Positions 9,072-57,624 of a stretch of DNA of 64,000 nucleotides are shown here, one piece after another. Source of the stretch: Phlebopus portentosus (lineage: Eukaryota; Basidiomycota; Agaricomycetes; Boletales; Boletinellaceae); contig JAYXKI010000001.1 of the NCBI GenBank assembly GCA_037892935.1, positions 2,170,001-2,234,000 on the forward strand. Direction: 5' to 3'. The first letter of the stretch is position 1. Each line of letters begins with the position of its first letter. Below the pieces are notes generated by a model. The model made no database searches and was not told the origin of the DNA. It worked only from the letters and a program-made list of their open reading frames with translations. Both the position numbers and the translations under genes were made by a program.

Positions 9072-9729
9072 ACTATATAATGTTCTTTCCCATGTCCTGT
9101 TCGCTGTATGCATTTTATGCACGAAGCATGCTTCATGTCAGAACAATATGCATTTGCCGTGCTCGACGCCAAAACTTTCGATTAGTAGAAACTCAAAAGC
9201 ATCGTGGAACTGAACTCTTGTTCGGCGATCACCGAGGCTTGATAAAGTTTATGTATTGTAGAAAGCGGGGTCTTTTCAGTACAGGTTTATTGTGATTGGA
9301 GAAATGGGAAAAAAAAAAAGTTCCATGAAGAAGAGAAAGAGATACCATCCGTGTCATAGAGAAAAACCCCCTAAGGTGGTTTGGAAATTCTTTGAAAAGT
9401 TCTGCAGTGTTTCTCATCTGATTGGTCAAAGACAGCTGCTTGATCTGGTGAGAGGTGGTAGAAGAAGAACATTTCATATCAAAGATCATAATAGAGAATG
9501 CATTTCAGAATGCAGTGGGTAATGGTGTCAGGTTTATGGCAGCAGGTACATTAGAGTGAAGGGCATATGCAGATGTAATATAAAGTAATATTGATGATAG
9601 TAATGTTCACTATAGCTCTAAGGTGCATGGTCTCAGCTGCATGTGACCAGGGCCATGTTAGGGGCCACTTAGATTGTGGGGTGGGTTGGCTTAGTGTAGT
9701 AATGTATGGTGTGAAGTCACTAGTATATT
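9072..9729. other. RPL32 3' flank, no gene seen
   Basis: 3'UTR and downstream sequence, with an A-run at 9308-9319 and a drop in GC content towards the first transposon remnant. No coding exon or RNA gene could be supported. Confidence 0.6.
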
Positions 9730-12211: not shown

Positions 12212-12590
12212 TGTTGAAAGGATCCACTCAAAAACTCGCATCAAGATCGACACAATCGGCAGATCAATAGGATCAGCATTCCAAATGCGACTAGTAACAG
12301 CCTAGCAGCCACTAGAGTCAAACTACTGTTAACGCGACTAAGGCAATAGTCACGGGCATCAATGGCAATATATGGGCGCTTGAGAAGCACGCCACAAGTA
12401 CGTAACCCCGCGGACTACTTAACACTGCCGACTGGTAATTACCACCGCTGATTTACTACCGCCGATCAAACTCCCGATCTGACCCGATCAAAAAAAGTCA
12501 AGAAGCAATCAAAACTACTAGAAGTTCGAGAAGTCTAGAACACGACTACTAAAGCCTAACACCTAAAGTCTAAAGGCTAATCCAATCCAA

Positions 12591-13232
12591 ATGGAGACAT
12601 CACTGGCATTCCAGCACTGTCAGACTTGTGCCCAAGCGTACATGGTCCTTTATGAGATATACTTCACAGTATGTCATGCTATAAGCGAAACACGTGACTG
12701 CCAAATTGAAGTCCAACGTCACACGCAAGAAGCTTTACATGCCAATCCACCAAATCCTATAATACCCAAGCGACATGAGGAACTCATTGTTACAACTCGA
12801 ACCCCTTGAGCTGCAGACCCAATAACTTGGAGGATACTAGGATGGTACAAGCCAGAGCTGCATAACTCATGTCCAGCCTCTACAGTACAAGCGAACCTTT
12901 ATTTACCAAGGAATGCAAACCTGGACACCAAGCAACTACAACTGGTACTCCAACGAAGGATATGGCAATACATTCGCGATGTTAGACTCCCAGGCAAAGC
13001 ATGGCTAGTCACTCGAACACAACTGCATCCCCCAGCAGAACTCATACAGTTCATAGTATGCATTGGACCATACTCTACACCAACCCGACATCTTAATACT
13101 GATGTGCAAGTTGTGCTTACACCCTTTGGACCACAAGACGAACAGCGAAGAGTTACATATCAAGCTGCCTACATTGCACCAAGAGCTACAATCCCACCTG
13201 GTGATGGAATCAACGTCATAGTGGAGCACTGA
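12591..13232 (+). pseudogene. U3-encoded ORF of LTR-iii (LTR-ORF family member 3)
   Basis: One reading frame from ATG 12591 to TGA 13232, broken by a single in-frame TGA at 12807; about 213 codons. It carries QHCQTCAQAYMVLYEIYFTV (CxxC at residues 10/13) and, 81 residues later, LHNSCPASTVQANLYLPR with a third Cys, then LIQFIVCIGPYS. The same arrangement is seen in the proteins at 27179-28162 and 53707-54447. It has no resemblance to gag, protease, RT or integrase. The TGA could be a decayed CGA, as in neighbouring elements. Function unknown; the paired Cys could bind metal, which is speculation. Confidence 0.65.
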
Positions 13233-14013
13233 CAGTGGAGCTTTCCATACTGGAGCAGCACCTCTATTGTCTCAGTCAGCAACCCTACAGAATTCCGTCA
13301 TAGTGGAGATACATTAGAGCAAAGTGGCGCTCAGTGGAGCAGAATGACGAAGGAAGTGATGTAATGGTGGAGCAAGGTGGAGCATGGTGGAGTAAAGTGG
13401 AGAGAAGATGAGTAAGAAATAGAACGGAAAATGGATTATCTAGAAAGCATAAATAGCGTTAGAAGTAGGCCCTCTTTCCCCCATCTTTCGATCCTCTTAA
13501 CACACAGCGACAGTGTCTTACTACACTATCCATTATGTGCTTTGTACTACTACGCCTCTTGGAAATCCCAATCTGCTCTTACTCTACCTTATCTCTGAAA
13601 GCATTCCTTACCAGGACTGCAACTAGGAAGGATAGTAAGGGGACCACGTGGTACAGCTAAACGTGGGTAGATAGATCACTGTTAGGCGGCGAGACTAACG
13701 GGTGTCGATCTCGAGGTGGCCAACACAACAACAAACAACTGGCTAATGCGAGTTGCCGGGCTATATGCACGCTAGGTCGCAGTGAAGGTAAGTAGAATTC
13801 AGCAAACTAATAATACAAGAGTAGATACCTAGGTCGCAGTGAAGGTAAGTAGAATAGAAAGACAAGGAAATGAAAGAGTCAAACTATCTACTTATATTGG
13901 GGACTGGCAATCCCAAAGGTTGACGCGTGCCTTCCCACGACCCATGCCGCATTGTGCCGGCGCGTTGATCACTTGAATCCATGTCTCACTTTTCAATTTT
14001 ACCTTCGACTCGC

Positions 14014-15641
14014 TGAAACTCCTGTGGACGTTCTGATGCCGGACAGGGAGTGTATAGTTCGAGGGGCTGCCCTAGAATACCTTCAAACGGTCAGCAGAGA
14101 ATTACACCCGAGCTAAGGGCACGAAGGAGTGGAGGGAAATAGGGATAGACAATGGAAGGGCTTGGTGAGAACCGGGGATATGAGGGAAGCGCTCGAGGAG
14201 GAATTCCAAGGGTAGGCTTCTCCCGAGATCGACGGTGGCGGTGCAAAGGCAAAATCGACTCTCCGGCTCAGCTGCGAGCTCTGGACTAAAGCCGACTAAC
14301 CCAAGGCACAAGAACTAAACTAACTAGGCTACGCTAGTCGAACCACCAACCCGAACGTGACTAATCGACTGTGCTAACACACTGGTAAGCGACTGCAGCC
14401 GATCTCACTCGTAGTCTAAAGTGTCGGAACGCGGCGTAACGATTCAAAACGCGATTCGATGGACGAAGGACAATTGCTGAGTGTGTCGAAATGTGATGCG
14501 AGGGATGGAGGTGCGAAACGATGACGGAAGGGGACTGAGAGAATCGAAGGATACGTGTGGGACGATGAAACCGAACGTTTCCGATCTAAACGATGCGGAA
14601 TAGCACCGGGCTGGTCTGAGGAAGCGGAGAGTGGAAAGTCAGGAGGAAAGGGGTGATATGGTGTCCTTTCCCGACGACACTGGAGAGGGGAAGGTGTTGC
14701 GAGACCGAATGCGAGTGGCACGCAGAGTAACTGGGTTACGAGCAAAACCGGGCGAAACGGATCGAAACACGTGAGGGGGTCTTGTTTCGGGTGAGAGAAG
14801 ATAGAGAAGCCTTTATACAATGACGGCGAACTATACGAACGCACGAACGGCTCTACTGCGAAGAGAGATCACCGATCGACTGTACAGAACACGAAATGTC
14901 GTATATTAGACTATAGAGACGAGAGAGTCCACTACGAACAAGTAGACTAGAGGTCGAGAGGCTTTGAGACGATGTGAGAACTGCAAGCTAAGCTCCCCAC
15001 TCAGCTCCGACTAAGCTGTCCCTCTACTACGAGAGTCGTGCTATATTTATACTAAACGTCCAAGACTGAGCCTCCCAGCGGTCAGAGAACCTACGTCATA
15101 AAGAAAAGGGAACGCATATCGCTATCTACAAAGGAGAGGAGCGCATAGGAATGGTTTAAGGGACATATAGGTCAAAAGAAACAATACTAAGCATGTCTGG
15201 AATGAGAGCATAATGGATTAAAGAGGACGCATATAGAAAGGTCAGAATATGTGCGGAACCTTCGGAACCGGGTCTCTTTGAGCGGAACAAAGCGGAACTC
15301 GGGGAAACGACTCGGAAGGGCTCTGGCTAGCCTGACAAAGTAAGTCTGCGATGTTTAACAAAGGAGAGGGACTGAGGACGAGATTGCAGGGTCAAATCTC
15401 TTTGTCTGGAATGCGGATCCAAGGTCCGGAGACTTGTGATCGACGCGTGCAAACTCGATGCCGTGATTCTCCCGTCTTGATGGCCGATCAAAGAACGGTG
15501 CACGTGCCATCTGGACTATGGCGTTCTTGCTAAGTTCACTCGTTCGAGCAAAACCAGTCGAAACCGAGCAAAACCAGTCAGAACACCGCGGAACTGGTCG
15601 TAACGACTCCGTACGTTCCCAAGCTTCAGACTTACTCTTCA
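14014..15641. mobile_element. J1: 1.63-kb solo LTR-like element
   Basis: TGAAACTCC...ACTCTTCA ends (TG...CA), flanked by the 4-bp duplication TCGC (14010-14013, 15642-15645). A second copy, J2, sits at 29928-31538 with a different duplication, which fixes the ends. There is no extended inverted repeat, so a solo LTR is the best reading. Minus-strand frames inside (e.g. 14416-14844) resemble frames in J2 but are not consistently open, so no gene is called. Confidence 0.75.
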
Positions 15642-17442
15642 TCGCTATACAGTCATCCACAACACATAAATTGTTTCTGTAAAATGTGATATATATGTCT
15701 TCATTGTTGAAGAATACAATTCTGTAATTTTAGAAAAAAATTACTAAGAACTGGGGAAAATATAGCGAATTTTCGATCATATCTCAGAAACTAGGAATGA
15801 TCGACTAAAATTTTTTTTAGTCAGATTGAGGAAATTTATGCAAAAGTACATTTTGTGCATTTAAACAGGTGATACTGAGTATGTGGAAGGCCTGAAGCTC
15901 AGGGATTCAGTAGGACTTCCTGTGTATCCCACGACACAGAATAAGGAAAGAAATGAGCACGTGATATGTAGAAGAGCGATGTTGAACTTCTCGAGATCTT
16001 GTTCCCATCAACAAGAAGCAAGCTTTTTGGGGCAAGTTCTGATTGCATCACGTATGTAATCAATTACTAAGTGCATATAGAGAGTTTACATGGTTTTATT
16101 GAACAGATGGTATTTACAACGAAAAGCACAAGACAGCTTTGTGCAGAGCATGCCCGATCTAAGAGGCTATCAAGCCTTCAGGCTGAAAAGGAGAACCTTC
16201 AGCCCGAGAAATTAACAAGGACAGCTTCTACAGTCATCAGCAGGTTAACTGGTGAGGCACAGAAAAAGCATGAAGAACTCACAGCGACTCTTCGAAAGAG
16301 TATTGACCAAGGAAAGTGCCTCACCAACATGCAGTCAGCGCTCGAGGACCTGAAGGAGAAGAACTTATCATTGAAGAACGAGCTTGCAAGGTCCCAGAAA
16401 GCACTTACCGAACTTACGAACCGATACTAGAACTCTCAAAATCGAACCTTGGCCTCTGTTATGGACCTTCGTTGTCATCGAGCTATTATCAAGCATTTAC
16501 GAGAATCAAATTCGTCTCTTAGAAAGAAAATCAACAAATTAGAACTGTAGCTAATGAGGAAGGAACCAGAACTCACCAGAGCACAAGCCGAAAATCATGC
16601 CCTGTCCAGCCAGCTCAGTTCCTGCTCGAATCTGCTCATGCACACGTCCACCCAACTTTCTACATATGAATTCGAGCGTGTTGTTGTCAATAATCAACAA
16701 GATGTGTTGCAGAACGACCTTGACACTCTACGCAAGAAGAGTCAGCAGCGAGACAAGGACTATAGGGAGAAGATCGAGAGCTTACGGAACCGATTGCTGA
16801 GGAAGCAAAGAAAGCACAAAGCTGTTCGATTGCAGCTTTTCCGAGCTAAAAAACAGATACATCAGCTTAATTCCTTCAAACGAAATACAATGCGAACAAT
16901 TCGAAACACTCACAAAAGCCACTACAGTACTCGACTTCGTGCCCTCATATGCCGCATTTGTGCTCAAGGAGTCTCGCTGGGCAAGTGTGGACCCGTCATC
17001 TCAGAGTTCATGAAATATAACTGCGAATCACTGGGGATCAGCTCGAGTAAAGCAAAGATACGAGTACCGAGCGCACGCACTGTTTCCAGGATCATTGGTG
17101 AGGCGGGCATCACCTCAAGGCTGCAGCTTGGATGGGACTTGAAACGCACGAAAGGTTTGTCCATGATATTAAACGCTTTCCCAAAGAAATAACGACTTAT
17201 AATCCACTAAGGATTTACAACAGGTGGAGACGGAACTACAAACAAGAGTCAGAATTTTGATTCTCTTCACATCAATGTTCAGACACCAAAAGATGACTCA
17301 CCTTCGACTGTTTGCAAAGTCTGTTTTGTGGAGGCACGATTGGAAGGAAATCATCGAGCTGAAACTCAGATGAAGGGAGATGTGAACGCTCTGGAGGAGA
17401 TCATCACGCTATTCAATCAGAGTCCACTAGCTTTGAGAGACG

Positions 17443-17497
17443 GTGAGACTATACTCAGCTAGGATCTTTGTATAGGTGCTAACTCGAGTCTCTTCAG
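17443..17497 (+). repeat. Introner-like intron, copy 1
   Basis: 55-nt intron of the D1 gene. It starts GTGAGACTATACTCAGCTAG, contains the branch-like TGCTAAC, and continues CTCGAGTCTC then TTCAG. The first 26 bases are identical to those of the intron at 18137. GAGACT near the 5' end and AGTCTC near the 3' end are inverted repeats. Confidence 0.8.
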
Positions 17498-18136
17498 GAC
17501 AAGAAAGCGAGTCCCTAAATGTTCAGAATCTTGCTTTAAAGTATCATGGTTCGCATGGGGATCATGCTGAAGATCAGAAGGCAAAACATCGGTTACTGGC
17601 ATTATGGAAGGAAGAAATGACTCATCTGGCACTCGGAACGCACCATTTTTTCTCGCTGACAGAAGAGAAGAGGAATTCATTCGTTCTTGAAGGAAGGAAA
17701 AAAATGGTTGAGGAGCTGGGAGGCGAATCAGCTTGGACTTCATTGAGCGCCGAAGAACGAAACAAAAAAGACTTATCTCTTATGAACGAGTTGGCCGAGG
17801 AACTTGCTGGTGAGGCCATACGAGCTCTTTCAGAGCACGAAAGACGCATGGTGTGCCTTTTCGTGTGGGCTGGTTGTGGGATGCATAAGGAACTTAACTC
17901 TGTGAAAGGAGGCGATTCAGCAATGAGAGAGGAATGGAAAAAACACGAAATCTCACCACGAATACTTGCCAATAAGGATAATGCAGCTGTCTTGGAGCTG
18001 GCCGAAGAGAATGGTGATGACAAAGAATGCGAGGAAACACCAGCTGAGAAGCGCGCTGTGGAGGTTTCGAAGGTCAGGGGTGTGAAGCTCGGCTCATTGA
18101 TGGGAATGCTGTTGAATGATAAGGATGATAAAAAGG

Positions 18137-18204
18137 GTGAGACTATACTCAGCTAGGATCTTTATATGAGTACTCACTTGAGTCTCGCATGTTTACACAT
18201 GCAG
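18137..18204 (+). repeat. Introner-like intron, copy 2
   Basis: 68-nt intron of the same gene. Same GTGAGACTATACTCAGCTAG start and GATCTTTATA continuation, then TTGAGTCTCGCATGTTTACA followed by CATGCAG. It shares the AGTCTCGCATGTTTACACA tail with copy 3. Splicing restores frame (..DDKK-GWHHVF..). Confidence 0.8.
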
Positions 18205-18557
18205 GATGGCACCATGTATTTCGCGATTGGGCTGAGAAGCACCTAGAAATAGTGTTTACTTTTCCAGACACGTCGAATACCTGGTATTCATCATATCTTG
18301 ATGCGGCTGCAGAGATTCTTGCACATCTCAATGCATATCTTGAATTTATGGACTCAATTCGCTATTCTAAAGTCAGGCCGGCATTCAATCATCTTGAAGA
18401 AAATGTTTATTATGGACTTCAGGACTCACCAACTCTCACCGAACTCGCCTGTCTTACACTGTACCGAGAGGCCGTCTCAGTGGACTTTATTGTGTCTATT
18501 CGTGGCAACTCTATTGAAGAAGTCAATGCCCTAGAAATTGGGCCACGGTTAGAGCAG

Positions 18558-18620
18558 GTGAGACTATACTCAGCTAGGATCTATCAAACATACTTACTCG
18601 AGTCTCGCATGTTTACACAG
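18558..18620 (+). repeat. Introner-like intron, copy 3
   Basis: 63-nt intron, a multiple of three and free of stops, so it could be read through. Starts GTGAGACTATACTCAGCTAG and ends CGAGTCTCGCATGTTTACAC followed by AG. CAGGT occurs at both borders (18555-18559 and 18618-18622), as expected of a short target duplication. Confidence 0.8.
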
Positions 18621-20472
18621 GTCAAGCAACACTTGCGGAAACTGATCTGCTCACCACAGCTCATCATTTCATCACAGGCGAAGCCTCAAGAGGCGACCCT
18701 GGATGGAAATAAAGGTTGGAATCGCCCCGATTCAATCGAAGCTATTCAAACCCTTATTGCCAAAGGGAGGCTACCAAAGCTGGAGGCCCTTTTCAGGGCC
18801 TTTTTGACTGGTGCACTGTCTACCTGGGGGCGATTTTCATCAGAATTTAATGATGACGGAGCAATTGCAGCACTTACCGAAGCAGAGAAGGAGCAGGCAT
18901 GGATGCCTGCAACAAATGATGCGAATGAGGGAGCACTTGGCTCCCTCAGGCTTTTCTCCCGACATAATCCAAGTGGATCTTTGCGGCTCTTCAATTCAAT
19001 ATTCAGATATCGGCGCAACAACACAGAAGAATTTATCAAAACTGTACTCACCAGTGACGAAGACCAGAAGTTTTTGCGCACACACGCACATGCTGAGGAT
19101 TCAAGTGGTCTGGAGAGGAAACGGCGGTGTGAAGTTACTGCAGAGAAGGATCAGGAACATGCCGCAAAGAAACTGAAGACCGACCTACTGACGCAGAAGA
19201 GGAAGGAGCATGACGAGCTCATCGAATCTGTCCCTTTGGAGTGGGAATGTTCTGCTGTCGAGCGAATGACCATCTATATGATGAAAATTCAGCTTGCAAA
19301 ATTCAAAAAAATTTATCCAACCGACGTACCTGCTGAGAAGATAATGTTGAAGAAAGCCGAAAAGCAAGCAATTTTGCTTGCTTTACTCGCCAGGTACAAT
19401 GTGGAACATCCAGAGGAATAACAACTCATCGTACGTCTTTGTACTCCATACGAATTTGCTGGCGGATGATGATCTTGTTTGTCTCATACCAGTCAACATC
19501 AAACGTGTCCATATCTCTGTACAAAGGCCGAACATGCAGCCACGAGACTGTCCTCGATCAGGCCTTTGCCTCAATTCATTGTGTTCTGTATCCGCTTGCA
19601 GATGAAGAGAACGTCATTGAAGCACACTATATGCGTGATGAACTGGGTTGCTTCATGTCGCGTCGCGTATTCGGAGGTGCTTGGAGGTGTTGTCATTTAG
19701 GCTTGCGTGTATATAGAGCTGGTGTGATAAATTTGTTAATGTGCGCAGTTCAAATTAAGTGGCGTACATACCCCTGGAAATCTAGCGTCTCTGACATCTA
19801 TCTACATGCCACATACCTGCTTCATAGATCAAGAGACGCAATACATACCATTCGCTTTGGGATCTTTGTAGTAATTTGTCTGCGATTGGTTTCATTCTGC
19901 GCTCGGTTTCAGAGAGGGGTCATAGTAATGAGCTGCTGGATCATTTGGCGGGACTCGGTAATTGAATGCAATAAGCTTTTTTCTTCTCTTCAGGCCAGAT
20001 GATCGTCTCAGAACCTTAAATATGAGATTTACATATGTTGCAAGGTACCCCACAACAAGTCCGAGACGGACCACACAAGATCTCGCGGATAGACAACGTG
20101 TCAGCATGTGAGAAGTAAAAGTGAAACATTGTGATCGACGCTAATTGCTACAACAGGCAAGTTTTTAAACTCCAACAGAAAAAAAAGGGGTTCACGGCGA
20201 CCTTGGGAATTGCCAGTCCCCACTTATATAGACTTCGAGCACGTGAAGGACTTACTCTAATAAGAAGGTCACATGTCAAAGAGTGGAGTGATTAGTGAGC
20301 GTGTTAGTCGGAAGGAACGGATTTAGTCATGGCCGATGACTGAAGATGAATAAGCCACAACGGATTGAACGGAATTAGTAAAAGAGGATTAGTAACATAA
20401 AGAAAAGGAAAAGGAATATTTAAAATGAATGATGACATAAGAAAAGAAAAGGAAAATGTTCGAGTCCTTACA

Positions 20473-23400
20473 TCACCCCCCTCTCAAGGTTGGGCGTCCT
20501 GACCAACCACATAATCCTTCTGACAACGTAAACCTATACAGTGCTCGCATGCTTTGTCGAGGTATTGTTAACTTTCGCGGAGCTCCAGGATGTTTACGAT
20601 AGAATTCTTGAATTGATTCCTGTGCATTGTCCTTGACGTCGGATTCCGGCTGCCATGTCGCTTCCTCATATCCAACCCACTTGACCAAGAACTGGAGCCT
20701 TCCTCGATGTAGATGTGAGTCAAGTATTTCTTCAACCTCATACTCTTCCTGTTCGTCAACGATCACTGGCGGGGGTGGAGGCGGCTTCTTCTGTGATTCG
20801 AAAGACGGTTGAACGGTCGGTTTGAGCAGGATCTCGTTAAAGACGGGATGAACGTGTTTCCATGTCTTTGGGATCTTTAGCTTATACGCGCTCGCGCCCA
20901 CCTTTTCCATTACCTCGAATGGGCCAAACCATTTGTCGTCCATCTTCTTCGTCGGTCGGATCGTCTTAATGTTTCGACCATCCAAGAAGACCTTTTGTCC
21001 CATCTCGTATACTACTGACTTTCCGGCATGACGATCGTAGAAGCGCTTCATGTCTTCATTGGCCTGGGTCAGATTGGCCTGAGCAAGTTCGTGTATTCCT
21101 TTGACATGTTTAGCAAACTCTTCTGCCGATAGATTGGACGAAGTCGTCCCCACGCCCGTAAAGCCTGAAGGGTGTTGTCCCGTGTTGACGAAGAAGGGTG
21201 ATAGTTTGGTCGCCGAATGTTCACGATTGTTGTGCGCAAACTCTGCAAGAGCTAACCAGTCCGCCCAGTCTGATTGTCAATGATTGACGTATAGTCGAAG
21301 GTACTGTTCGAGTTCTTGATTAACTCGTTCTGTCTGTCTGTCTGTTTGAGGGTGGTATGCCGTTGACGGATTGCCTTCAATGTGAAGGAGTTTGTATAAC
21401 TCCCTCATCATCTTCGCATCGAACTGTACTCCTCGGTCATGGATGATCTTTCGAGGTAAGCCGTGCAACCGGAAGACATGGTCCCTGTAAATCCTGGCCA
21501 TTCCTTCTGCTGTCAATTTCGTCGTCGTTGGTATCGCATGGATTTGTTTGCTGAAGCGATCAACTACCACACAAATTGCGTTAAATCCATTTGACTCCGG
21601 CAACTCTCCGATCAGGTCGACCGTGACAACTTGCCATGGCGCTTCCGGCACCTCGTTAGGGTGCAAAACCTTTGTTCTTGTTGTTCTGAGGGCCTTCGTT
21701 CGCTGACAATGATCGCATCCTCGCACGTAATTCCGGACATCGACGTACATGTTAGGCCACCAGAAACCTCTGTTTGCTAGTGCAACGGTCTTGTTTGCTC
21801 CTGGGTGGCCTGCTAACGTCGAGTCGTGACACTCCCTCATCACTTCCTCCCTCACGCTCGTTGGTACGAAAACGTTTTGAAACTTCTTCGTCTTCGTCCT
21901 TGAGAGCTTAGTCGTCACCTCCTTTTTCCACAACCCATCCACGAACACTAAGTTCGTCGGTCTCTCTTCCTCCTCCAGCTCCATCTGTGCCTTTCGAATC
22001 TTTTTGATCAACACGTCTCTCGACGTCTCTACCGTTCCCCTGACCAGCCATTCATCTCTGATGAATGTGACGTCCTCATTATCCCATTTGCCCTTGTTGT
22101 AGTCTGCCTGTCTCGACAATATGTCGGCTTTGCCCAACATCTTCCCTGGCTTGTGTACTAACGTGAAGTCGAATTTAGCTAAATCGAGTCGCCAACGAGC
22201 TTGTCGACGATTCAACTTTTGAGGCAATCGGAAATATGTCAGGTTTGCATGATCGGTCCATACTTTGAAGGGTCTCTTGGCTCCTTGGAGGTATTGTCGC
22301 CATTTCTTGAGAGCTTGAACAATTGCGAGCATCTCTTTGTCATAGATCTCGTAATTTTGTTCAGCCTCCAAGAAGGTCGACGATCGATAAGCTATCACCT
22401 TCTACTTGTCATCTTGTTTCTGAAGGAGCACTCCTCCAGACGCAAAGTCCAACGCATCTGCTTCGACCCGGAAAGGACCCTCTTCATTCGGGATGGCTAG
22501 AACCGGGGGACTACTCAACCGACCTTTCAGTTCCTCGAATGCCGTCTGTTCATCCTCGCCCCACTTCCATTCCACCTTACCCGTCAGCGTCGTCAGGGGT
22601 TTAACAACGGAGCTGTAGTCCCTTACGAATCGTTGCAACCAATTCCCTAGTCCCAGGAATTGTTGCAGTTCGTGAACGTTTCACGGGATTGGCCACTCCT
22701 GAACTGCTGTTGTCTTCTTTGGGTCCATTCGAACCTCGCCATTACCGATGATGTGTCCGAGATACTTAACTGTATCAACCTCGAACTCACATTTCTGCGG
22801 CTTCAGGAACAGTCCGTTTTGACGCAGGATTTCAAAGACTCATTTGGTGCGTTGGCGATGCTCTTCCAAATCGTTTGAGAAAATGAGAATGTCGTCGAGG
22901 TAAATGATGACGATACCCTCATGGATCATTTCTCGAAAGATATCATTCATGAAACCTTGGAATGTCGCCGGCGCATTGCATAATCCGAAAAACATGACTG
23001 TTGGTTCGAATAAGCCCAAATTCGTCCTAAACGCCGTCTTCCATTCATCACCCTCGCGAATCCGAATATTGTAATATCCCCAGCGAACGTCGAGCTTCGT
23101 GATGTATTTCGCATCCTTGACCTTATCGATGAGCTCATTTATCAACGGCAACGGGTATTTGTTCTTAACCGTTCCTTCGTTAAGCTTTCGGTAATCTTGA
23201 ATTGCTCGTAAGCTCCCATCTTCCTTTTTGATAAAGAAGAATGGAGATGCCATCGGGGATTTCGACTGTCGGATACGTCCAGATGCTAGGTTCTCCTCGA
23301 TGAATTCCTTCATCGCCTCTTGTTCTTTCGGTGATAATGGATAAACCTTGCAATCGCTGGGTTTGAAGTCTGGTTTCAGGTCAATAGCGTGGTCCCACGT

Positions 23401-24336
23401 TCGGTGGTTTGGTAAGCGTTTGAACGATTCCTCACTAAAGACGTCAGCGTATTCCTCTAGGTAAGGTGGCCACTTCGCCGCTTCCTTCATCCGCACATTC
23501 CTCACAAACTCTTCGTCTATCTCCTCGTTCGATGGTGACAACTCACATTCGTCAGGGCAACGTGTGAACTTGACTGCTCCTAACTTCCAATCGATCTCAG
23601 GATTGTGCTTCATCAACCAGTCATGTCCGAGGAAGATGTTGCTCGACGCCAAGGATGTCACCGCCAGTCGAATCTCCTCCTCATGTTTCCCAAAGAACAT
23701 TTGTACAACTACGTATTCCTTGATCAACCCAGCTTCATTGCTTGTTCCATCAGCATTGAAGACTGGTCTAGGTCGAATGTACCTCTGGGTAGGGAAACCG
23801 TATCGTTTAACGAAACCTTCATCGATACAGGAACCCGTGCATCCTGAGTTGATTAGCGCATGGGCGTCAATGAAGTTTTCCTCTTCGAGTAGAGGGTTTG
23901 ACAAATCTACTTCATCGTCGCCTGCCACCTTTGGGTGTACGATGCTAACGAAGGCGTCCAACTCTTTTCCTCCTGCCCTCCGGATGAACTGGTCTGTGTC
24001 CACAATCCCCTCGCGCCATACCTCAGCCGCGCGTCTGCCTACCACATTCCACACTGCTTCAGTAACGTTCGCCTGAGCAACAATGTTCTCGCGGTAAGGT
24101 GCTTCCGCCACAACCTCATTTTTTATAGCAGTCTGATTCCGCTCCTCCTCTCTTAACTCGCCTGCTTGCACATCTGCTCTCCTGACAAATAAATTTTCAT
24201 AGACCTCGAAGTCATCGTTGTCGTCTTCAGATTCATCTGGCAGCACGTCAGTAAGGATCTTTCGAAGGGTAAAACCGTCACTGATATTCACATCTTGATT
24301 TTGTACAGCAGGACAATTATATTTTAACGAGTCCAA
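20473..24336 (-). pseudogene. Gypsy A pol: protease, RT, RNase H, integrase, chromodomain
   Basis: Minus-strand polyprotein of a chromodomain Gypsy element. Order from the right: spacer ([12 protein letters not shown]), aspartic protease with [11 protein letters not shown] (the catalytic Asp of IDSGCTG in copy C is Asn here), reverse transcriptase with [11 protein letters not shown], RNase H with VWTDHANLTYF, integrase with the H..H...C..C pattern (HDSTLAGHPG, GCDHCQR) and VDLIGELPES, HDRGVQFDAKMM, STAYHPQTD, and a C-terminal chromodomain (EEYEVEEILDSHLHRGRLQF). The stop overlaps the polypurine tract. Frame breaks: TGA at 22840, TGA near 22680, TAG near 22403, TGA near 21281. The pol frame overlaps the end of gag in another frame, as if a frameshift were used. 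Confidence 0.9.
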
Positions 24337-24377
24337 CGAAAAGAATCCTTTAGGAAACCGACCAGTCGTTCCGACGT

Positions 24378-25832
24378 TTACGCCTGGTCTTCCGGAAAAC
24401 CCTCGCCTTCCACTAGTTCTTCCAGCTCAGCAGGCACTGCTCGCACGTCGACCTCATCATCCTCTTCGAAGGAGGATTCCTTTGCTTGGCCGAGCTCTTC
24501 GAAGAGTGCCTTCCTGTCTGCCGGAACAAAAGCTGCGATGATGGCGCGTATTGCTTCACGGCCTCACAGGCATTCCCTGATGTAGTGGCCCACCTGGCCA
24601 CACTTGTAACAAGCACGTGTACGGCGCGCCTGGTTCATCATTAGGTCCATTGGCTGACCCAGGCCTCCGTACGTTATTCCTGTTGCGTCACAACGATCTT
24701 GGGGAGGAGGCATGTAGGGACGAGCTGCTTGTTGGAGCGGCATAGGCCGTCTCGGTGGTGGCGGAGGAGCTGGCCTTGTTGCCGTTGAGCTTATTGTCTT
24801 TCGTTGACGTTCGGCCATCAGGTCTCTGATCTGACGTTCAACCCTGTCGACCTTGACGGCAGCCCTCTTGAACTCTTCGTACGACGTCGGTTCATTAGGC
24901 AACCTCATGACGCCTTCGACAACCTTGGGGTTTAGAGCCCTCTTTAGGCGACTCATCAACCACTCGTCGTGCGCTTCCGTCGCTAGACCCGCATCCACTC
25001 GACAGATGTCGAATTTGTTGAAGAACTCATTGGCATTGAGGTCTCCTTGGTACATCGCATCAAGTCATTCGAAAGCCTTCTGAGACCTGGCGGGGTCATC
25101 GAACGACGTGTCCAGCTTCTTTAAGAAGGCTTCCCAGCTGTCTGTAAACTTCAAATCGCCATTTGCATCGATCGCTCCGCTGGTATAGCTTTCCGCCCAG
25201 CGAGCTGCAGCACCACTCTTCATGTACGACAGGGCAAACATAATTTTGCTCTTGTTCGTCCTGAATTCATGTTCGGATGCGTAGATATACAGGCGCAGTT
25301 CTCGTTTGAAGTCTACGTAATCATGTTCGCCATCGAAATCTCTGGGTTTGGCGACGTGGACCTTCTTTGATGTCTTCGAGCCTTGGTTCGCGCCTTCGCC
25401 TGCAGCTTGGAGAGCTAGTGCAACCGCCGTCGCGAGATCAGTCATTGTTTCCTTTGACAATGACATCTCGTGTTCTTCCTCTTCTTCTTCTTCTTTGTCT
25501 GTTGGTACGAGCGGAGCCAGTTCTCGTGGTGTAGTGAAAGACAATGGGGGTGCTGTGGATGGGGCCGACGCCCGACCTGTCAATGTTGATGGTCCTGGTA
25601 ATGAGGCCGTTGATCGTGTAGGGGTAGGGGGCACGGGTTCGTCTTCGTCACCCTCTTCTTTCGCTCTCCAATACTGCGACTTGTCCCCCCTGGTCGAATA
25701 CCACTTCTTCGCGGTTTCGTCCCACCAAGCCGTGAAGTTCTGGCCGCCCGACCTGACGATGTACTGTTTCTTTGACGCGCTCCACCTAGAGTTTGTCAGA
25801 AGCGCCGCTCGTTGCTTGTCAGTTAGCTCCAC
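24378..25832 (-). pseudogene. Gypsy A gag
   Basis: Capsid/nucleocapsid precursor. The body (VELTDKQRAALL...) includes a WSASKKQYIVRSGGQ segment, an acidic run (EEEEEEEHEMSLSKE), the capsid core (KPRDFDGEHDYVDFKRELRL, SYMKSGAAARWAESYTSG, FDDPARSQKAFE, YQGDLNANEFFNKFD) and one zinc knuckle CYKCGQVGHYIREC. Stops at 25065 (TGA where copies B and C have an Arg codon) and near 24564. No in-frame ATG precedes the body; the start may come from the leader ORF by splicing or be the internal Met before SLSKE. Confidence 0.85.
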
Positions 25833-25975
25833 TTTGATAGGCTGGGGGTGGAACAGGGATCGGGATGGTGTTCAGACGGGACCGATTTCAGATGATCGGC
25901 TCGTCTTTGAAATTGACAACTAGTTGAAAGGCACCAAGGTAGATGATAAATGAAATACTTGATGAGGATTGGACT

Positions 25976-26254
25976 CTATGCATCACCCACGAGAACGTCT
26001 GATGGGAGTTCCAAAGAAGAGTGATTCTGAGCGCCACGTTGACGATAGTGTGGATAGGGGTCTGGGACTGGACCGTCGATACGAACAGGAACTAGGCAGC
26101 CTTCTTTGTTCCGACCAAAGACTATGTCGTTCGGATCGATGTTTCCTAGGCTGATCTGATCTTGAACGTCTGCCCAAGGTACGACAAACCTCTTTGATTT
26201 TGCGTAAGGTCGTCGGCGGGGTTGATAACGAGTCTGGTAGCGAGTCGGAGCCAC
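25976..26254 (-). CDS. Leader ORF of Gypsy A (92 aa)
   Basis: A basic 92-aa frame between the 5' LTR and gag, starting MAPTRYQTRYQPRRRPYAKS and containing VVPWADVQDQISLGNIDPND. It ends near a GT...AG pair (donor GTGATG about 25989, acceptor ..CAACTAG about 25920) that could join it to the gag body, though the frame was not resolved. A broken copy survives at 10433. In copies B and C most of it is missing, between short GAGC(G)CCACG-like repeats. Function unknown. Confidence 0.5.
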   Translation of the reverse strand: MAPTRYQTRYQPRRRPYAKSKRFVVPWADVQDQISLGNIDPNDIVFGRNKEGCLVPVRIDGPVPDPYPHYRQRGAQNHSSLELPSDVLVGDA

Positions 26255-26426
26255 GGTGATATGATTGGTTCAGGAACTATCGGGACACGTCAAAGTCACT
26301 CGGACCTTAACGGGCAAGATAGGGGTTGCTCGGATAAATCCAGGATGGGCGCGGTTGTTGACCGTCAATATGTCTCCTGCGTGGAGTAGCGACGAACGAG
26401 TGGTTAACCCATGGGTTCGAGAGTAG

Positions 26427-26437
26427 GTCTTTCTATT
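26427..26437 (-). other. Self-priming site of Gypsy A
   Basis: On the minus strand the base after the 5' LTR is T, followed by AATAGAAAGAC. The reverse complement GTCTTTCTATT occurs in the LTR at 28223-28233, about 35 nt downstream of the TATA box (TATATAAG), where transcription should begin. Exact 11-nt complementarity at this place is the pattern of Tf1-type self-primed reverse transcription. Confidence 0.7.
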
Positions 26438-26580
26438 ATGTTAGGCGGCGAGACTAACGGGCGTCGATCTCGAGGCGGCCAACACAACAACAAACAACTG
26501 GCTAACGCGAGTTGCCGGGCTATATGCATGCTAGGTCGCAGTGAAGGTAAGTAGAATTCAGCAAACTAATAATACAAGAG

Positions 26581-28186
26581 TGTTAGGACCAGTGTTTTCG
26601 GACGAGGTGGTCAGTCCGAGCGTACCGGAACAAGTCCCTGCTTCCTCCTTCTGACAATGTATGATTGGAGAGTAGAGTAGCGAAGGTTAGATGTACTACT
26701 AAGAAGCGAGCTATAGGCTCAAGCTTAACCCAGCAGTAGAGCAGAGGTTCAATCAAAGGGGTACAGTTATGATTGAAAGTACAAAATAATTTTGCTGAGG
26801 GACAACACCCCGCTCAGCTGGCGCTTTAAATAAAGTTTCTACTGAATACTACCGACTACCAAATACTACCGACCATGCCTCGCTATTGGTTAGGACAATG
26901 TGTTTCAGCTGGTGTCACTACTACTCTCTTGAGTCTGTAGTACCACTGACAACTCTGGTGGTGCTACCGAAACTCCTGGTTGCACCACCGACTACTTCCT
27001 TCCCTATTAGGCAGGCCCTAACTTCCTTCCGTTCCGAAGAAGCCTTCCCCAGGCTTCTATCGATCTCCGTTCCTATCACATGTTAATCCTTAACGCCAAT
27101 CTTCCCATGAGAGACTTCTTTCATGTGCCGCGATCTCGCTTCGCCGGCGCTCCGTTACTCCGGCCGAGCTTCTGCCGTTTAATCTTCCATCATGGGGCTG
27201 ACCGTTATCTCGGGATTTGGGATCGGCAACCCCTGCCGATCATCGGAGATTAACCTTGGCGGCTGTGTAAATTTAGCCGACACCCTTCTGTGCCTTGCCG
27301 CGATATCGATGTCAGTGAATTGTAGTCCGGTACCCGTCGTTAACCTGTATCTTCTTCCCAGGTGATTCGTTCCGCGCCATTCGTCGACTGTAATAACCCC
27401 TTCTTCCGATCGTTCCCATGCTTCTAGCATTCGATCCGTTGCTTCTTCGATAAGACTTTCGACGTCCGATGGCGCACTGTAATAGATCGGCCAATCGACT
27501 TCTACTGCAGTGTTTCGACACAAGGTCTGGTGACGATGCTGATTGATCCAAGCTCTCACGCCAACCTTCAGTGCATAGATATCCCTGTCGCCAAGCCATA
27601 CAGATACCTCATGATCGTATGCGCTCATTCCGCGGTTCGGCAATGGTTGGTCAAACGTTCGTTCCGAGGGTCCGGGTTTATGCCGAATCTTGACATCGGC
27701 CCCTTCCCTAGTTACTAAGCGCTCCACGAAGTTCTTGAGGAGCCACTCCGAAAGAACCCAACTCCTTTGGTATGCCAAATAGCAGTTTGTACAAACCAGG
27801 CTTTCATGAACAAAGCGTCTGGTTGCACTATGTCGATATCGTCTCTTCTGCAGGAGTTCCACGTATCTTGCGATGTTCCATTCTTCCATGTCCACGTAGC
27901 TTCGCTCGGGTGGAGGAGTATGTCCAATATGCATTCCAGCTAGTCCTTGCTGTAAATCGTATGGGTCCTCCCTTTCGTCGCGTTCGTCCTCGTAATATCG
28001 TCGATCAGGTTCCTCTTGAATATATTCCACAGCGACCTCCCCAGGTCCTTGCTGTACTAGTGGGCGAGAATCGCCTCCACTATTCTGTCCTTGAAGCCTT
28101 TCGAAATGCTCTTGATTAGGCTGCATAATTCGGTGTGTAAAGCGTCTGATGCCACGCCGCATTGTATATCCACAATTTTCGTAACA
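26581..28186 (-). mobile_element. H: solo copy of the element E long LTR
   Basis: 1606 bp with TG...CA ends (TGTTAGGACC on plus at the left, CGTAACA at the right) and target duplication AAGAG (26576-26580 and 28187-28191), inside the 5' LTR of Gypsy A. It matches the 5' LTR of element E (46972-57622 without its insertion, about 1605 bp) along its whole length, including the 327-aa ORF, the TATA-like TATTTAA and the AGCAAAATTAT segment. So it is a solo LTR, not a complete element. Confidence 0.88.
27179..28162 (-). CDS. U3-encoded ORF of LTR H (LTR-ORF family member 1, 327 aa)
   Basis: Intact frame from ATG (28162) to stop, starting MRRGIRRFTHRIMQPNQEHF. Residues 1-90 are polar and acidic/Arg-rich (extension absent from the other family members). 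The core holds SLVCTNCYLAYQRSWVLSEW (CxxC at 124/127), AYDHEVSVWLGDRDIYALKV, HQTLCRNTAVEVDWPIYY (Cys 215), EATDRMLEAWERSEEGVITV and the tail ITVSPMMED. It lies upstream of the LTR TATA box, hence in U3. The element E copy (46996-57025) keeps the same frame on both sides of insertion F. No known domain recognised; not gag- or pol-like. Confidence 0.75.
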   Translation of the reverse strand: MRRGIRRFTHRIMQPNQEHFERLQGQNSGGDSRPLVQQGPGEVAVEYIQEEPDRRYYEDERDEREDPYDLQQGLAGMHIGHTPPPERSYVDMEEWNIARYVELLQKRRYRHSATRRFVHESLVCTNCYLAYQRSWVLSEWLLKNFVERLVTREGADVKIRHKPGPSERTFDQPLPNRGMSAYDHEVSVWLGDRDIYALKVGVRAWINQHRHQTLCRNTAVEVDWPIYYSAPSDVESLIEEATDRMLEAWERSEEGVITVDEWRGTNHLGRRYRLTTGTGLQFTDIDIAARHRRVSAKFTQPPRLISDDRQGLPIPNPEITVSPMMED

Positions 28187-28586
28187 AAGAGTAGATACCT
28201 AGGTCGCAGTGAAGGTAAGTAGAATAGAAAGACAAGGAAACGAAAGAGTCAAACTATCTACTTATATAGACTTTGAGCGCGTGAAGGACTTACTCTAATA
28301 AGAAGGTCACATGTCAAAGAGTGGAGTGATTAGTGAGCGTGTTAGTCGGAAGGAATGGATTTAGTCATGGCCGATGACTGAAGATGAATAAGCCACAACG
28401 GATTGAACGGAATTAGTAAAAGAGGATTAGTAACATAAAGAAAAGGAAAAGGAAAATTTAAAATGAATGATGACATAAGAAAAGAAAAGGAAAATGTTCG
28501 AGTCCTTACAATCACCTCTACACAACATACTGCTGCTTAGGCAAAAGGATCGAAACCGTTGTAACCCCGGACCTACACCTCTAACA

Positions 28587-46971: not shown

Positions 46972-47264
46972 TGTTATGAAAATTGTGGATATACAATGCG
47001 GCATGGAATCAGACACTTTACACACCGAATTATGCAGCCTAATCAAGAGCACTCCAAAAGGCTTCAAGAACAGAATAGTGGAGGCGATTCTCGCCCACTA
47101 AGACAGCAAGGACCTGGGGAGGTCACTGTGGATTACATTCAAGAGGAACCCGATCGACGATATTACGAAGACGAACGAGACGAGAGGGAGGACTCATATA
47201 ATTTGCAAGAAGGCCTAGCTAGAATGTACATTGGACATACTCCTCCACCCGAGCGAAGCTACGT

Positions 47265-53650: not shown

Positions 53651-55156
53651 TGTTAGAAATTGCTTTAGTCAGCAGTATAGCGTGCACGTGACAGCATATA
53701 ATCAAAATGTTCACACGACAAGCGAGAACGCTGGAAACTACATTAAAGAGAATAGTTAACCGAGGACGAGCCAGTCAATGGCCAGAAGTCAAGGACGACT
53801 GCGAGAAATGCAAACAAGCACAGCAGATAGGATGGGACATTTATTGTACAATAATCTCATCACTCTTGATGACAGAGGTATTAGCAATGAACTTCGACAT
53901 ACGAGGAACGCATAGAGTATTTCCAGGATACGTTACTCAAGAAGGCATACAACAGCCTAATACGAATTATGTGACATTTGAACATATGGTAGCAGTATTC
54001 TCACATGACGAACGAGACTATCTAATGAACGCAGGAGTACAGATTAAATTCCCAAAGCGGAAACATAAAGAAGAATGTCAATTTATTCATATTAATATTG
54101 ACATACCATACAGAAGAGGAGCTAATGAAATAGTAAGACGTATAGCAGAAAATACGATAACTAGAGTTAAAGAATTCATTAGACTCATCGATGCAGAAGG
54201 AGTATCAGTAATGGACGAACGAGTCACAGAAATATCAATGGAACACAGGATCAAGTTCGTGATTGGTCCAATTAAGATTCCAATGCCACCGGAAGAAGGG
54301 TTCACAAGAATGACGACATATCTCCACAAGAGAAGCTTTCCGGTAGATGATAGAACGCCGGTGGGAAAAACCCCAGGACTTCCAGAAGAAGATGTAGTAC
54401 CCCACAGGCACCGAACCTCGGAAGCCATGGAGATCGACGATCACTGATAAGGAAAGTTAATCTAATCAGGAAGGTGATAAGAAGGGAAGCGATGCGTACA
54501 CATCCATAGGAGTAGTAGATGAGAGGAAAGCTTTTACAACTAGCTCAGGCGAAGTAGCAGCATCAGTCAGCCATCCGAGTCGGAAGAAGAACATAAGTCC
54601 TAACTCCAAGGAGAGAAGGCCATAGAACGGTAGGGAATAAACCAGTGGAGCTCAGAACCAGTACAGATGCCAGCAGAGTAGCTGAGGATAGTAAGTATGC
54701 ACCAGAAAGTGCTAGAGTCATTAGACCATAACAGTAGAGCTCAGACATTGAAGTACACAGCAAGAAACTAGTAGAACGAACTAGAACATACAGTACGATC
54801 GGAATTGACAAGGAACGCACGGAATTGACAAGGAAAGGGTGGAGCAAGTGGAGCACCTTGTAGAAGGCACTGGAAGGTATACATGGTCAGTAGAAAGACT
54901 GAGGTAGATAGTTATAGTAGTAGCCTAGCATAGCCACACCTGTAGAGTATAAAAGGAGGCCAAACGAGCCATCCTGAGTAGCAGTTCAATTCATCTCTCC
55001 AAACGCCCCTCAAGCGAGTTGGAGTTTTTCTCTCATACAAACACTAGTCTGATACTTGTCCTTGCCTGATTCTTTGACATCGCTTACCAATCAGCAGTGT
55101 GAGACACTTGCTTCAGTAGTAAGCCATATATTACTCTTCTTACTCTGATTCTAACA
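53651..55156 (+). mobile_element. LTR-ii: ORF-bearing solo LTR
   Basis: 1506 bp, TGTTAGAAATTGC...TTCTAACA, target duplication ATAGC (53646-53650, 55157-55161); the left LTR of F shows the empty site. Order: short leader, ORF 53707-54447, TATAAAAG at 54948-54955, then about 200 bp to the LTR end. Same plan as LTR-iii and the E/H LTR, but no nucleotide match to them apart from the TGTT...AACA ends. Confidence 0.85.
53707..54447 (+). CDS. U3-encoded ORF of LTR-ii (LTR-ORF family member 2, 246 aa)
   Basis: Intact frame, MFTRQARTLETTLKRIVNRG to EAMEIDDH. Shared with the 327-aa protein of H: DDCEKCKQAQQIGWDIYCTI (CxxC at 32/35), TFEHMVAVFSHDERDYLMNA against AYDHEVSVWLGDRDIYALKV, ECQFIHINIDIPYRR with a Cys at 124 (89 residues after the CxxC; 88 in H), and IDAEGVSVMDE against SEEGVITVDE. 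Codon use is AT-rich, unlike the surrounding F element. It lacks the 90-residue N-terminal extension. Function unknown. Confidence 0.75.
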   Translation: MFTRQARTLETTLKRIVNRGRASQWPEVKDDCEKCKQAQQIGWDIYCTIISSLLMTEVLAMNFDIRGTHRVFPGYVTQEGIQQPNTNYVTFEHMVAVFSHDERDYLMNAGVQIKFPKRKHKEECQFIHINIDIPYRRGANEIVRRIAENTITRVKEFIRLIDAEGVSVMDERVTEISMEHRIKFVIGPIKIPMPPEEGFTRMTTYLHKRSFPVDDRTPVGKTPGLPEEDVVPHRHRTSEAMEIDDH

Positions 55157-57370
55157 ATAGCCCCCTCACGTTGGCGCTGCCATACGCCTCCTAGATGCTC
55201 CGGCGGCGGCCCTTGGCGAGCCCAGTGACTCAGGAGATGCTGTCAGACAGTAGGACTCATCGGCGAGAGCAGTAGGGTATATATAGAGTGTATATTCATC
55301 AGTAGACGAGGACCATATACATACAGAGATACTCGAGCACATACATAGCAGAGAGCTTCCACAACATACAAGGGCCAGGGTTTGAGATTCCCTCACTCTG
55401 AGCTCCCCCTCATGTACTGAGCTCCCCCATTGACTATATACTACCCTTGACTCGTCGTTCTATTCTCCTTCGGCGCCTCTGACATTTAGTGTGTGAGTTA
55501 GGACTGGGAACCTACCTCCAAATGTCTGCCGCACTACATCGTACCTGTCGGGCAGCCTCTATTCGACCTTGGTGGCCCTCCAGCGACACAGGCCTTCCAT
55601 TGTATCCCCCCTCGGCGTCTTTTCCAGTTACTCGCCGCACGTTGTCCCTTATATTCATCGTATACGGCCCCTACCTTCCATTTATCCAGTTTACGCTACT
55701 GCGGCGGATTTGTACAAGCTCCCTCGTCCCCGGTGGCCCCCTATTCGACCTCGGCGGCCCTCCGGCGACCCAGGCCTCCTTTCCTATTCCCCTTCGGCGT
55801 CCTTTTCATCTGCTGGCCGCACATTGCCCCTTATATTCATCGTATATGGTCCCTTCCTTTTGTTTATCCAGCTTACGCTACCACGGCGGATTTGTACACG
55901 CTCCCTTGTCCCCGGCGGCCCCCTATTCGACCTCGGCGGCCCTCCGGCGACACAGGGCTTCCATTGTATTTCCCCTCGGCGTCTTTTTCACCTACTCGCC
56001 GCACGTTACGCCTCATATTCATTATATACAGTTCCTAGCTTCCCCCTACTGAGATTGCACTACTCCGGCGGACTCCTGTGACCTCCCCTTCTGTCCGGCG
56101 GACCTACTACTCCATTCCTTTCATACCTTGGCGTCCCTAGGCCACTCCACGACGTCTCTGACAGTTTTGGCACCTGCCAGGTGGTTAGTGGTTAGAGTCT
56201 GATAGCTTGAGGCTTCGTTTCTGGAGGTTTCTTCACACATTCAGCTCCCTTAGTAGGACGGACATCTGTAGTGCCTTCAGATAGAGAGACCACCCAAAAT
56301 ACCACAATGTGGACATGGAAGAACGAAACATCACAAGATATGTAGAACTCCTGCAGAAGAGACGATATCGACATAGTGCAACCAGACGCTTTGTTCACGA
56401 AAGCCTGGTCTGTACGAATTGTTATTTGGCATACCAAAGGAGTTGGGTTCTTTCGGAGTGGCTCCTCAAGAACTTCGTGGAACGCTTAGTAACCAGGGAA
56501 GGAGCTGATGTCAAGATACAACATAAGCCCAGACCCTCAGAACGAACGTTTGACCAACCATTGCCGAACCACGGAATGAGTGCATACGATCATGAGGTAT
56601 CCATATGGCTCGGCGACAGAGATATCTATGCACTGAAGGTTGGCATGAGAGCCTGGATCAATCAGCATCGTCACCAAACCTTGTGTCGAAATACTGCAGT
56701 AGAAGTCGATTGGCCAATCTATTACAGTGCGCCATTGGACGTCGAAAGTCTTATCAAAGAAGCAACGGATCGAATGCTAGAAGCATGGGAACGATCGGAA
56801 GAAGGGGTTATTACAGTCGACGAATGGCGTGAGACGAGTCACCTGGGAAGAAGATACAGGTTAACGTCGGGTACCGGACTACAATTCTCCGACATCGATA
56901 TCGCGGCAAGGCACAGAAGAGTATCTGCCAAATATACACAGCCACCAAGGTTAATCTCCGATGATCGGCAGGGGTTGCCGATCGCGAATCCTGAGATAAC
57001 GGTCAGCCCCATGATGGAAGACTAACGGCAGAAGCTCGGCCGGAGTAACAGAGCGCCGGCGAAGCGAGATCGCGGCACATGGAAGAAGTCTCTCGTGGGA
57101 GGATTGGCATTAAGGATTAACATGTGATAGGAATGGAGATCGATAGAAGCCTGGGGAAAGCTTCTTTGGAATGGAGACACATTAGGGCCTGCCTAATAGG
57201 GAAGGAAGTAGTCAGTGGTGCTACCAGGAGTTTCGGTAGTGCCACCAGAGTTGTCAGTGGTACCACCGACTCAAGCAAGTGGTGGTGAAACCAGCTAAAA
57301 TATGTTGTCCCAACCAATGGCGAGGCATGGTCGGTAGTAATTGGTAGTCGGTAGTATTCAGTAGAAACTT

Positions 57371-57417
57371 TATTTAAGGCGCCAGCTGAGCGGGGTGTTG
57401 TCCCTCAGCAAAATTAT
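57371..57417 (+). promoter_or_regulatory. LTR promoter and predicted RNA 5' end of element E
   Basis: TATA-like TATTTAA at 57371-57377 and, 36 nt further, AGCAAAATTAT (57407-57417), the exact reverse complement of the site just after the LTR. Spacing from the TATA box places the transcription start at or just before this 11-mer. Conserved in solo copy H. Confidence 0.65.
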
Positions 57418-57624
57418 TTTGTACTTTCAATCATAACTGTACCCCTTTGATTGAACCTCTGCTCTACTGCTGGGTCAAGCTTGAGCCTATAGCTTGCTTC
57501 TTAGTAGTACATCTAACCTTCGCTACTCTACTCTCCAATTACATATTGTCAGAAGGAGGAAGCAGGGACTTGTTCCGGTACGCTCGGACTGACCACCTCG
57601 TCCGAAAACGCTGGTCCTAACATT

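Follow-up and report, generated by a model that had tools for sequence, protein, structure and literature searches.

Three LTR families with reading frames of their own

The window, by which we mean the entire 64,000-nt stretch of DNA analysed, contains LTR copies of three families, here called H, ii and iii, each of which bears a reading frame inside the LTR (Table 1). The frames occupy LTR positions 25-1008 in H, 57-797 in ii and 399-1040 in iii, leaving 24, 56 and 398 nt, respectively, between the LTR start and the ATG. An earlier note on this DNA had drawn attention to such LTR-encoded proteins, and its observation stands: the H frame lies within a 1606-bp LTR, the two window copies taken to be intact, 327 aa long in H and 246 aa in ii, are indeed uninterrupted, and the E copy of H is split by a later insertion, as had been read, both its parts being recovered by self-blast. 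The frame of iii, which meets a stop in the window copy, is free of stops in at least 18 full-length genomic copies. Two details had to be amended. The TGTT start ascribed to all three families holds for H (TGTTACG), but LTR-iii begins with TGAAAGG, the TGTT seen there being a junction with the flank; and the placement of LTR-iii at 12212-28586 is right for the end near 28586, but the start is 12215.

Table 1. Positions of the LTRs, reading frames and promoter-proximal elements of families H, ii and iii in the window
Feature	Position	Strand	Basis or remark
H-family solo LTR (1606 bp)	26581..28186	-	ends from two-LTR copies; TSD AAGAG on both sides
Intact 327-aa frame of the H U3 protein	27179..28162	-	ORF list; selection; genomic matches
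TATA-like box of H (LTR 1355-1362)	26825..26832	-	read from sequence
Putative self-priming site of H (LTR 1391-1401); predicted RNA start and boundary between U3 and R	26786..26796	-	11-nt complement
Family H LTR, E copy, part 1	46972..47264	+	self-blast; interrupted by later element
Family H LTR, E copy, part 2	56309..57622	+	self-blast
Solo LTR-ii	53651..55156	+	TSD ATAGC
Intact 246-aa frame of the ii U3 protein	53707..54447	+	ORF list; homology to H; selection
TATA box of LTR-ii	54948..54956	+	read from sequence
Putative self-priming site of LTR-ii; predicted RNA start	54983..54993	+	11-nt complement
LTR-iii, main part	12215..13678	+	final stretch at ~28511-28586, past nested insertion
U3 ORF of family iii	12591..13232	+	window copy with in-frame TGA at codon 73
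TATA-like box of LTR-iii	13448..13457	+	read from sequence
Putative self-priming site of LTR-iii; predicted RNA start	13483..13494	+	12-nt complement

Copies of the LTRs and their frames were searched for in the whole genome (38.4 Mb, 23 contigs), and LTR ends were defined from copies possessing both LTRs (12 pairs compared, target-site duplications, TSDs, being read for several of them). For H this comparison gave an LTR of 1606 bp running from TGTTACG to CTAACA and flanked by target duplications of 5 bp; the 3′ copy is preceded by a polypurine tract. The LTRs of one H pair (L002/L001, TSD CTAGT) are 100% identical and those of another (L003/L004, TSD CTGTT) 99.94% identical, and therefore these elements moved recently; the 17.8 kb separating the latter two presumably reflect an insertion inside the element. 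At the protein level the H frame has at least 122 genomic matches (122 of 241 candidates scored), and among those listed 77 lack an in-frame stop and 29 same-strand pairs are spaced by 10,997-11,193 bp. LTR-ii (~1505 bp) is represented by 28 near-full-length matches, 12 of them without a stop, and by six pairs, and LTR-iii (~1.54-1.59 kb) by at least 150 matches, many of them decayed. The element interrupting the E copy (window 48502-49434 and 55556-56306) has LTRs of ~2.2 kb with 182-bp tandem repeats in which several frames are open; these frames are probably non-coding.

Selection on the reading frames

Synonymous and non-synonymous differences were counted by the Nei-Gojobori method on 18 fetched copies of H, 28 of ii and 30 of iii. 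The H set was drawn from the 122 listed matches and consists of the eight best, among which five are nearly identical, and ten more picked for divergence. Pooled over stop-free copies, pN/pS equals 0.19 for H (15 of the 18 fetched), 0.12 for ii (12 of 28) and 0.195 for iii (18 of 30, over 185 codons, the reference copy stopping early). Values of 0.12-0.195 go against the neutral expectation, the sign by which the earlier note had proposed to recognize chance similarity. Since the compared copy pairs are not independent, the ratios are given without a P-value. The H, ii and iii frames are under purifying selection.

It might still be argued that the frames stay open by chance, owing to base composition or biased mutation, and that no protein is produced. 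Mutation in these repeats is biased indeed, as TGA predominates among the stops of decayed copies, which is what CpG decay is expected to leave. However, even with broken copies included, pN/pS in the coding frame remains at 0.21 in H, 0.19 in ii and 0.24 in iii (213 codons), against 0.77-1.71 in the other sense frames of the same copies and 0.51-1.02 in the noncoding LTR portion 3′ of the frame, and third codon positions account for 55-62% of all differences, so that an accidental origin is hardly credible. A low ratio (0.28-0.31) is seen in one antisense frame too, as is to be expected where wobble positions are shared, and the remaining antisense frames give 0.74-1.68.

Relationship of the three proteins

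The U3 proteins have in common a Cys/His pattern, C-x2-C followed by H-x2/3-C. No family that would point to a function was found for them in Pfam, PHROG or NCBIfam, and no long hydrophobic stretch is evident by eye. The H and ii proteins are homologous as judged by their sequences: the similarity is collinear, reaches a BLASTP E value of 4.5e-10 and was matched in none of 1000 shuffles. Identity between these two families is 22% for the U3 protein, 29% for gag and 56% for pol; such faster divergence of the U3 protein than of gag and pol suits a regulatory or counter-defence role.

The proposal that all three belong to one diverged family thus holds for H and ii, while for iii the evidence is uneven. 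Four iii copies were compared with the others by shuffling. Against H, similarity is not significant, with 749-878 of 1000 shuffles scoring as well in semiglobal and 896-991 in local alignment, and hhalign yields an E value of 0.54; the iii frame also begins 398 nt into the LTR versus 24 and 56 nt. These points speak for an iii protein acquired independently and merely resembling the products of one ancestral U3 gene that gave rise to H and ii. The comparison of ii with iii is suggestive of the opposite, only 3, 5, 31 and 5 of 1000 shuffles in semiglobal alignment (36, 27, 103 and 96 in local) equalling the real score. Two structural models built separately, both of low confidence (pLDDT 45.5 and 51.1), agree in the order of helices and strands and keep the CxxC and the third Cys in register, and the proteins occupy the same LTR placement in related elements whose pol is 45-49% identical. 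On balance independent acquisition seems somewhat unlikely, and iii is probably homologous to H and ii, given the LTR placement, the C-x2-C/H-x2/3-C pattern, the predicted topology and the weak ii-iii signal.

Element class and position of the frames in U3

One internal region was analysed per family (L069, L070 and L071 for H, ii and iii, respectively). In each of these regions gag contains a zinc knuckle, and pol comprises reverse transcriptase, RNase H, integrase and chromodomain; together with TG...CA LTRs, a polypurine tract and target duplications of 5 bp (12 pairs; TSDs read for several) this domain set identifies Ty3/Gypsy chromoviruses and bears out the assignment to fungal Gypsy elements. 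All three LTR families flank such elements. Over ~1000 residues pol is 56% identical between H and ii, 49% between ii and iii and 45% between H and iii.

The primer site following the 5′ LTR is complementary to the element's own LTR over 11 nt in H, 11 in ii and 12 in iii, the complement starting at LTR positions 1391, 1333 and 1301, respectively, and a self-complement of this length was reached in 0 of 200 shuffles of each LTR. A TATA-like sequence lies 36 (H), 35 (ii) and 34 bp (iii) 5′ of the complementary stretch, downstream of the frame as the earlier note had placed its TATA box. Judging from this arrangement, genomic RNA would start at the self-priming stretch in all three. With the RNA start placed downstream of the frames, the whole frame falls within U3 and the putative U3/R border 3′ of it, in agreement with the U3 location suggested before. 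In having a site after the 5′ LTR that complements the element's own LTR, and a chromodomain integrase, these elements are like self-primed chromoviruses of the Tf1 type. The LTRs of Tf1 are short and without an ORF, unlike those of H, ii and iii.

Expression and possible role of the U3 gene

We favor, at a probability of about three in four, the reading that H, ii and iii are Ty3/Gypsy chromoviruses that prime themselves and have their last gene, coding for a zinc-binding accessory protein expressed from the 3′ LTR, entirely in U3. Genomic RNA would begin 3′ of the frame in the 5′ LTR and proceed through the pre-gag frame, gag and pol, the U3 gene thus forming its 3′-terminal reading frame. 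Reverse transcription would copy this single U3 into both new LTRs, doubling the gene with each jump, and the gene would be retained in every solo LTR. By the retroviral mechanism both U3s of a new copy derive from the 3′ end of the RNA, and therefore selection on the 3′ copy reaches both LTRs.

In the 5′ LTR and in solo copies of H and ii, the 24 and 56 nt before the ATG are too short to hold a promoter for the gene; as the predicted main promoter lies downstream, expression is most likely from the 3′ LTR, presumably via a subgenomic RNA. Such an RNA might arise in two ways: an acceptor-like site immediately 5′ of the polypurine tract could be used for splicing, or transcription could begin at a promoter near the internal region's 3′ end. 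In favor of splicing, H and ii share an acceptor-like box, TCTCCTTNNAGTCCGA, at identical distance 5′ of the 3′ LTR (14/16; 0 of 20000 shuffles); its AG is found in all seven 3′ copies of ii, a single base of the box 3′ of the AG differing in L016 and L024. Family iii lacks the box before its 3′ LTR, and the 9-kb intron implied, unusual for a fungus, counts against this route. The second route, an internal promoter, is hinted at in H by CACRTGAC sites (L069 positions 9206, 9249 and 9292); the number of CACGTG motifs 5′ of the H 3′ LTR is not above expectation.

The U3 product is modeled as a small alpha/beta protein with a probable C-x2-C/H-x3-C zinc site, and we read it as zinc-binding. As to function taken alone, an accessory factor, most likely the element's regulator or an anti-silencing factor, is our tentative choice, held at a little under even odds. 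A structural or membrane-associated protein, serving the particle, an envelope-like function or the nucleocapsid, would fit the company of other unusual genes in these elements, such as the small spliced frames with hydrophobic stretches 5′ of the 3′ LTR (see below), and the Cys/His pattern could bind nucleic acid; the lack of a long hydrophobic stretch evident by eye and a divergence fast relative to gag make this unlikely. That the protein limits transposition of its own element, intact solo copies acting in trans for copy-number control, might be suggested by the stop-free frames among the 122 listed H matches (77), many of which lie outside recognizable pairs. Such a limiter is distinctly improbable, given that solo copies of H and ii have no upstream promoter of their own and that the families multiplied nonetheless. 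A broader reading, in which a fungal chromovirus lineage reached retrovirus-like complexity, with a protein encoded before gag, small membrane-type products of spliced frames and a regulator in U3, and solo LTRs form a reservoir of intact genes acting in trans on element or host silencing, is rather unlikely.

Known parallels

HIV nef is a 3′-terminal accessory gene near or overlapping the 3′ LTR, and both nef and the tas/bel genes of foamy viruses extend just partly into the LTR, unlike the fungal U3 frames. Foamy viruses combine an internal promoter with tas/bel as 3′-terminal accessory genes, according to PMC7828637. These genes resemble the fungal one in their 3′-terminal position near or overlapping the 3′ LTR; they differ in belonging to unrelated hosts, and no sequence match to the fungal proteins was found.

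The closest parallel is MMTV sag. PMC4667437 describes LTRs as ordinarily non-coding, sag as lying mostly within the LTR U3, and the sag copies found as mostly solo LTRs; purifying selection is visible across sag copies. The fungal frames share with it coding within U3, persistence in solo LTRs and purifying selection, as well as, most likely, expression from the 3′ LTR. The differences are that MMTV, a betaretrovirus of vertebrates, possesses env and has several promoters for sag, and that the fungal frame lies wholly in U3. Pfam searches, run to E 10 with H and ii and to E 1 with 12 copies of iii, gave no match to any Sag family. Fungal Gypsy elements of up to >13 kb with an 'add. ORF' of unknown function are mentioned in section 5 of PMC2864245, where the text gives no LTR placement for that ORF.

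A U3-encoded accessory gene is therefore known as a kind from MMTV sag. No precedent for a fungal LTR-encoded protein was found in the open-access literature, and what appears new, on the sequence evidence, is its occurrence in a host group and element clade without such a description there. If true, LTR retrotransposons far from vertebrate retroviruses also evolved 3′-terminal accessory genes, and the annotation 'solo LTR' may conceal dozens of intact genes per fungal genome; the U3 protein can be tested as a candidate regulator or anti-silencing factor encoded by a transposon.

Further reading frames in the elements and the window

All three families have a frame 5′ of gag, of 629 aa in H (L069:586-2475) and 334 aa in iii (L071:491-1495) and split by a predicted intron in the leader of ii (L070). 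A hydrophobic stretch occurs in those of H and ii, and no significant mutual similarity was found among the three. In family ii the stretch from pol to the 3′ LTR (L070, minus strand, and likewise the 7 fetched 3′ copies) has two more frames: one of 89 aa with pN/pS 0.23, and a predicted spliced one of ~72 aa with a hydrophobic stretch near its N-terminus and pN/pS 0.17, whose intron ends GTRAGT...TTAG are kept in 7 of 7 copies with a variable intron sequence. A short antisense frame of iii (L071 ~9080-9200) is similar in plan to this small ii frame, a hydrophobic stretch at its N-terminus preceding Arg-rich residues; its GTGAGT donor is found in 10 of 10 fetched 3′ copies, and the acceptor is ambiguous. 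Family iii also carries a 332-aa frame downstream of pol and ahead of the 3′ LTR (L071:7288-8286), with no Pfam match below E 0.08. Elsewhere in the window, at 16554-19421, three frames of 212, 226 and 410 aa are unlike gag-pol and possibly represent another kind of transposon gene.
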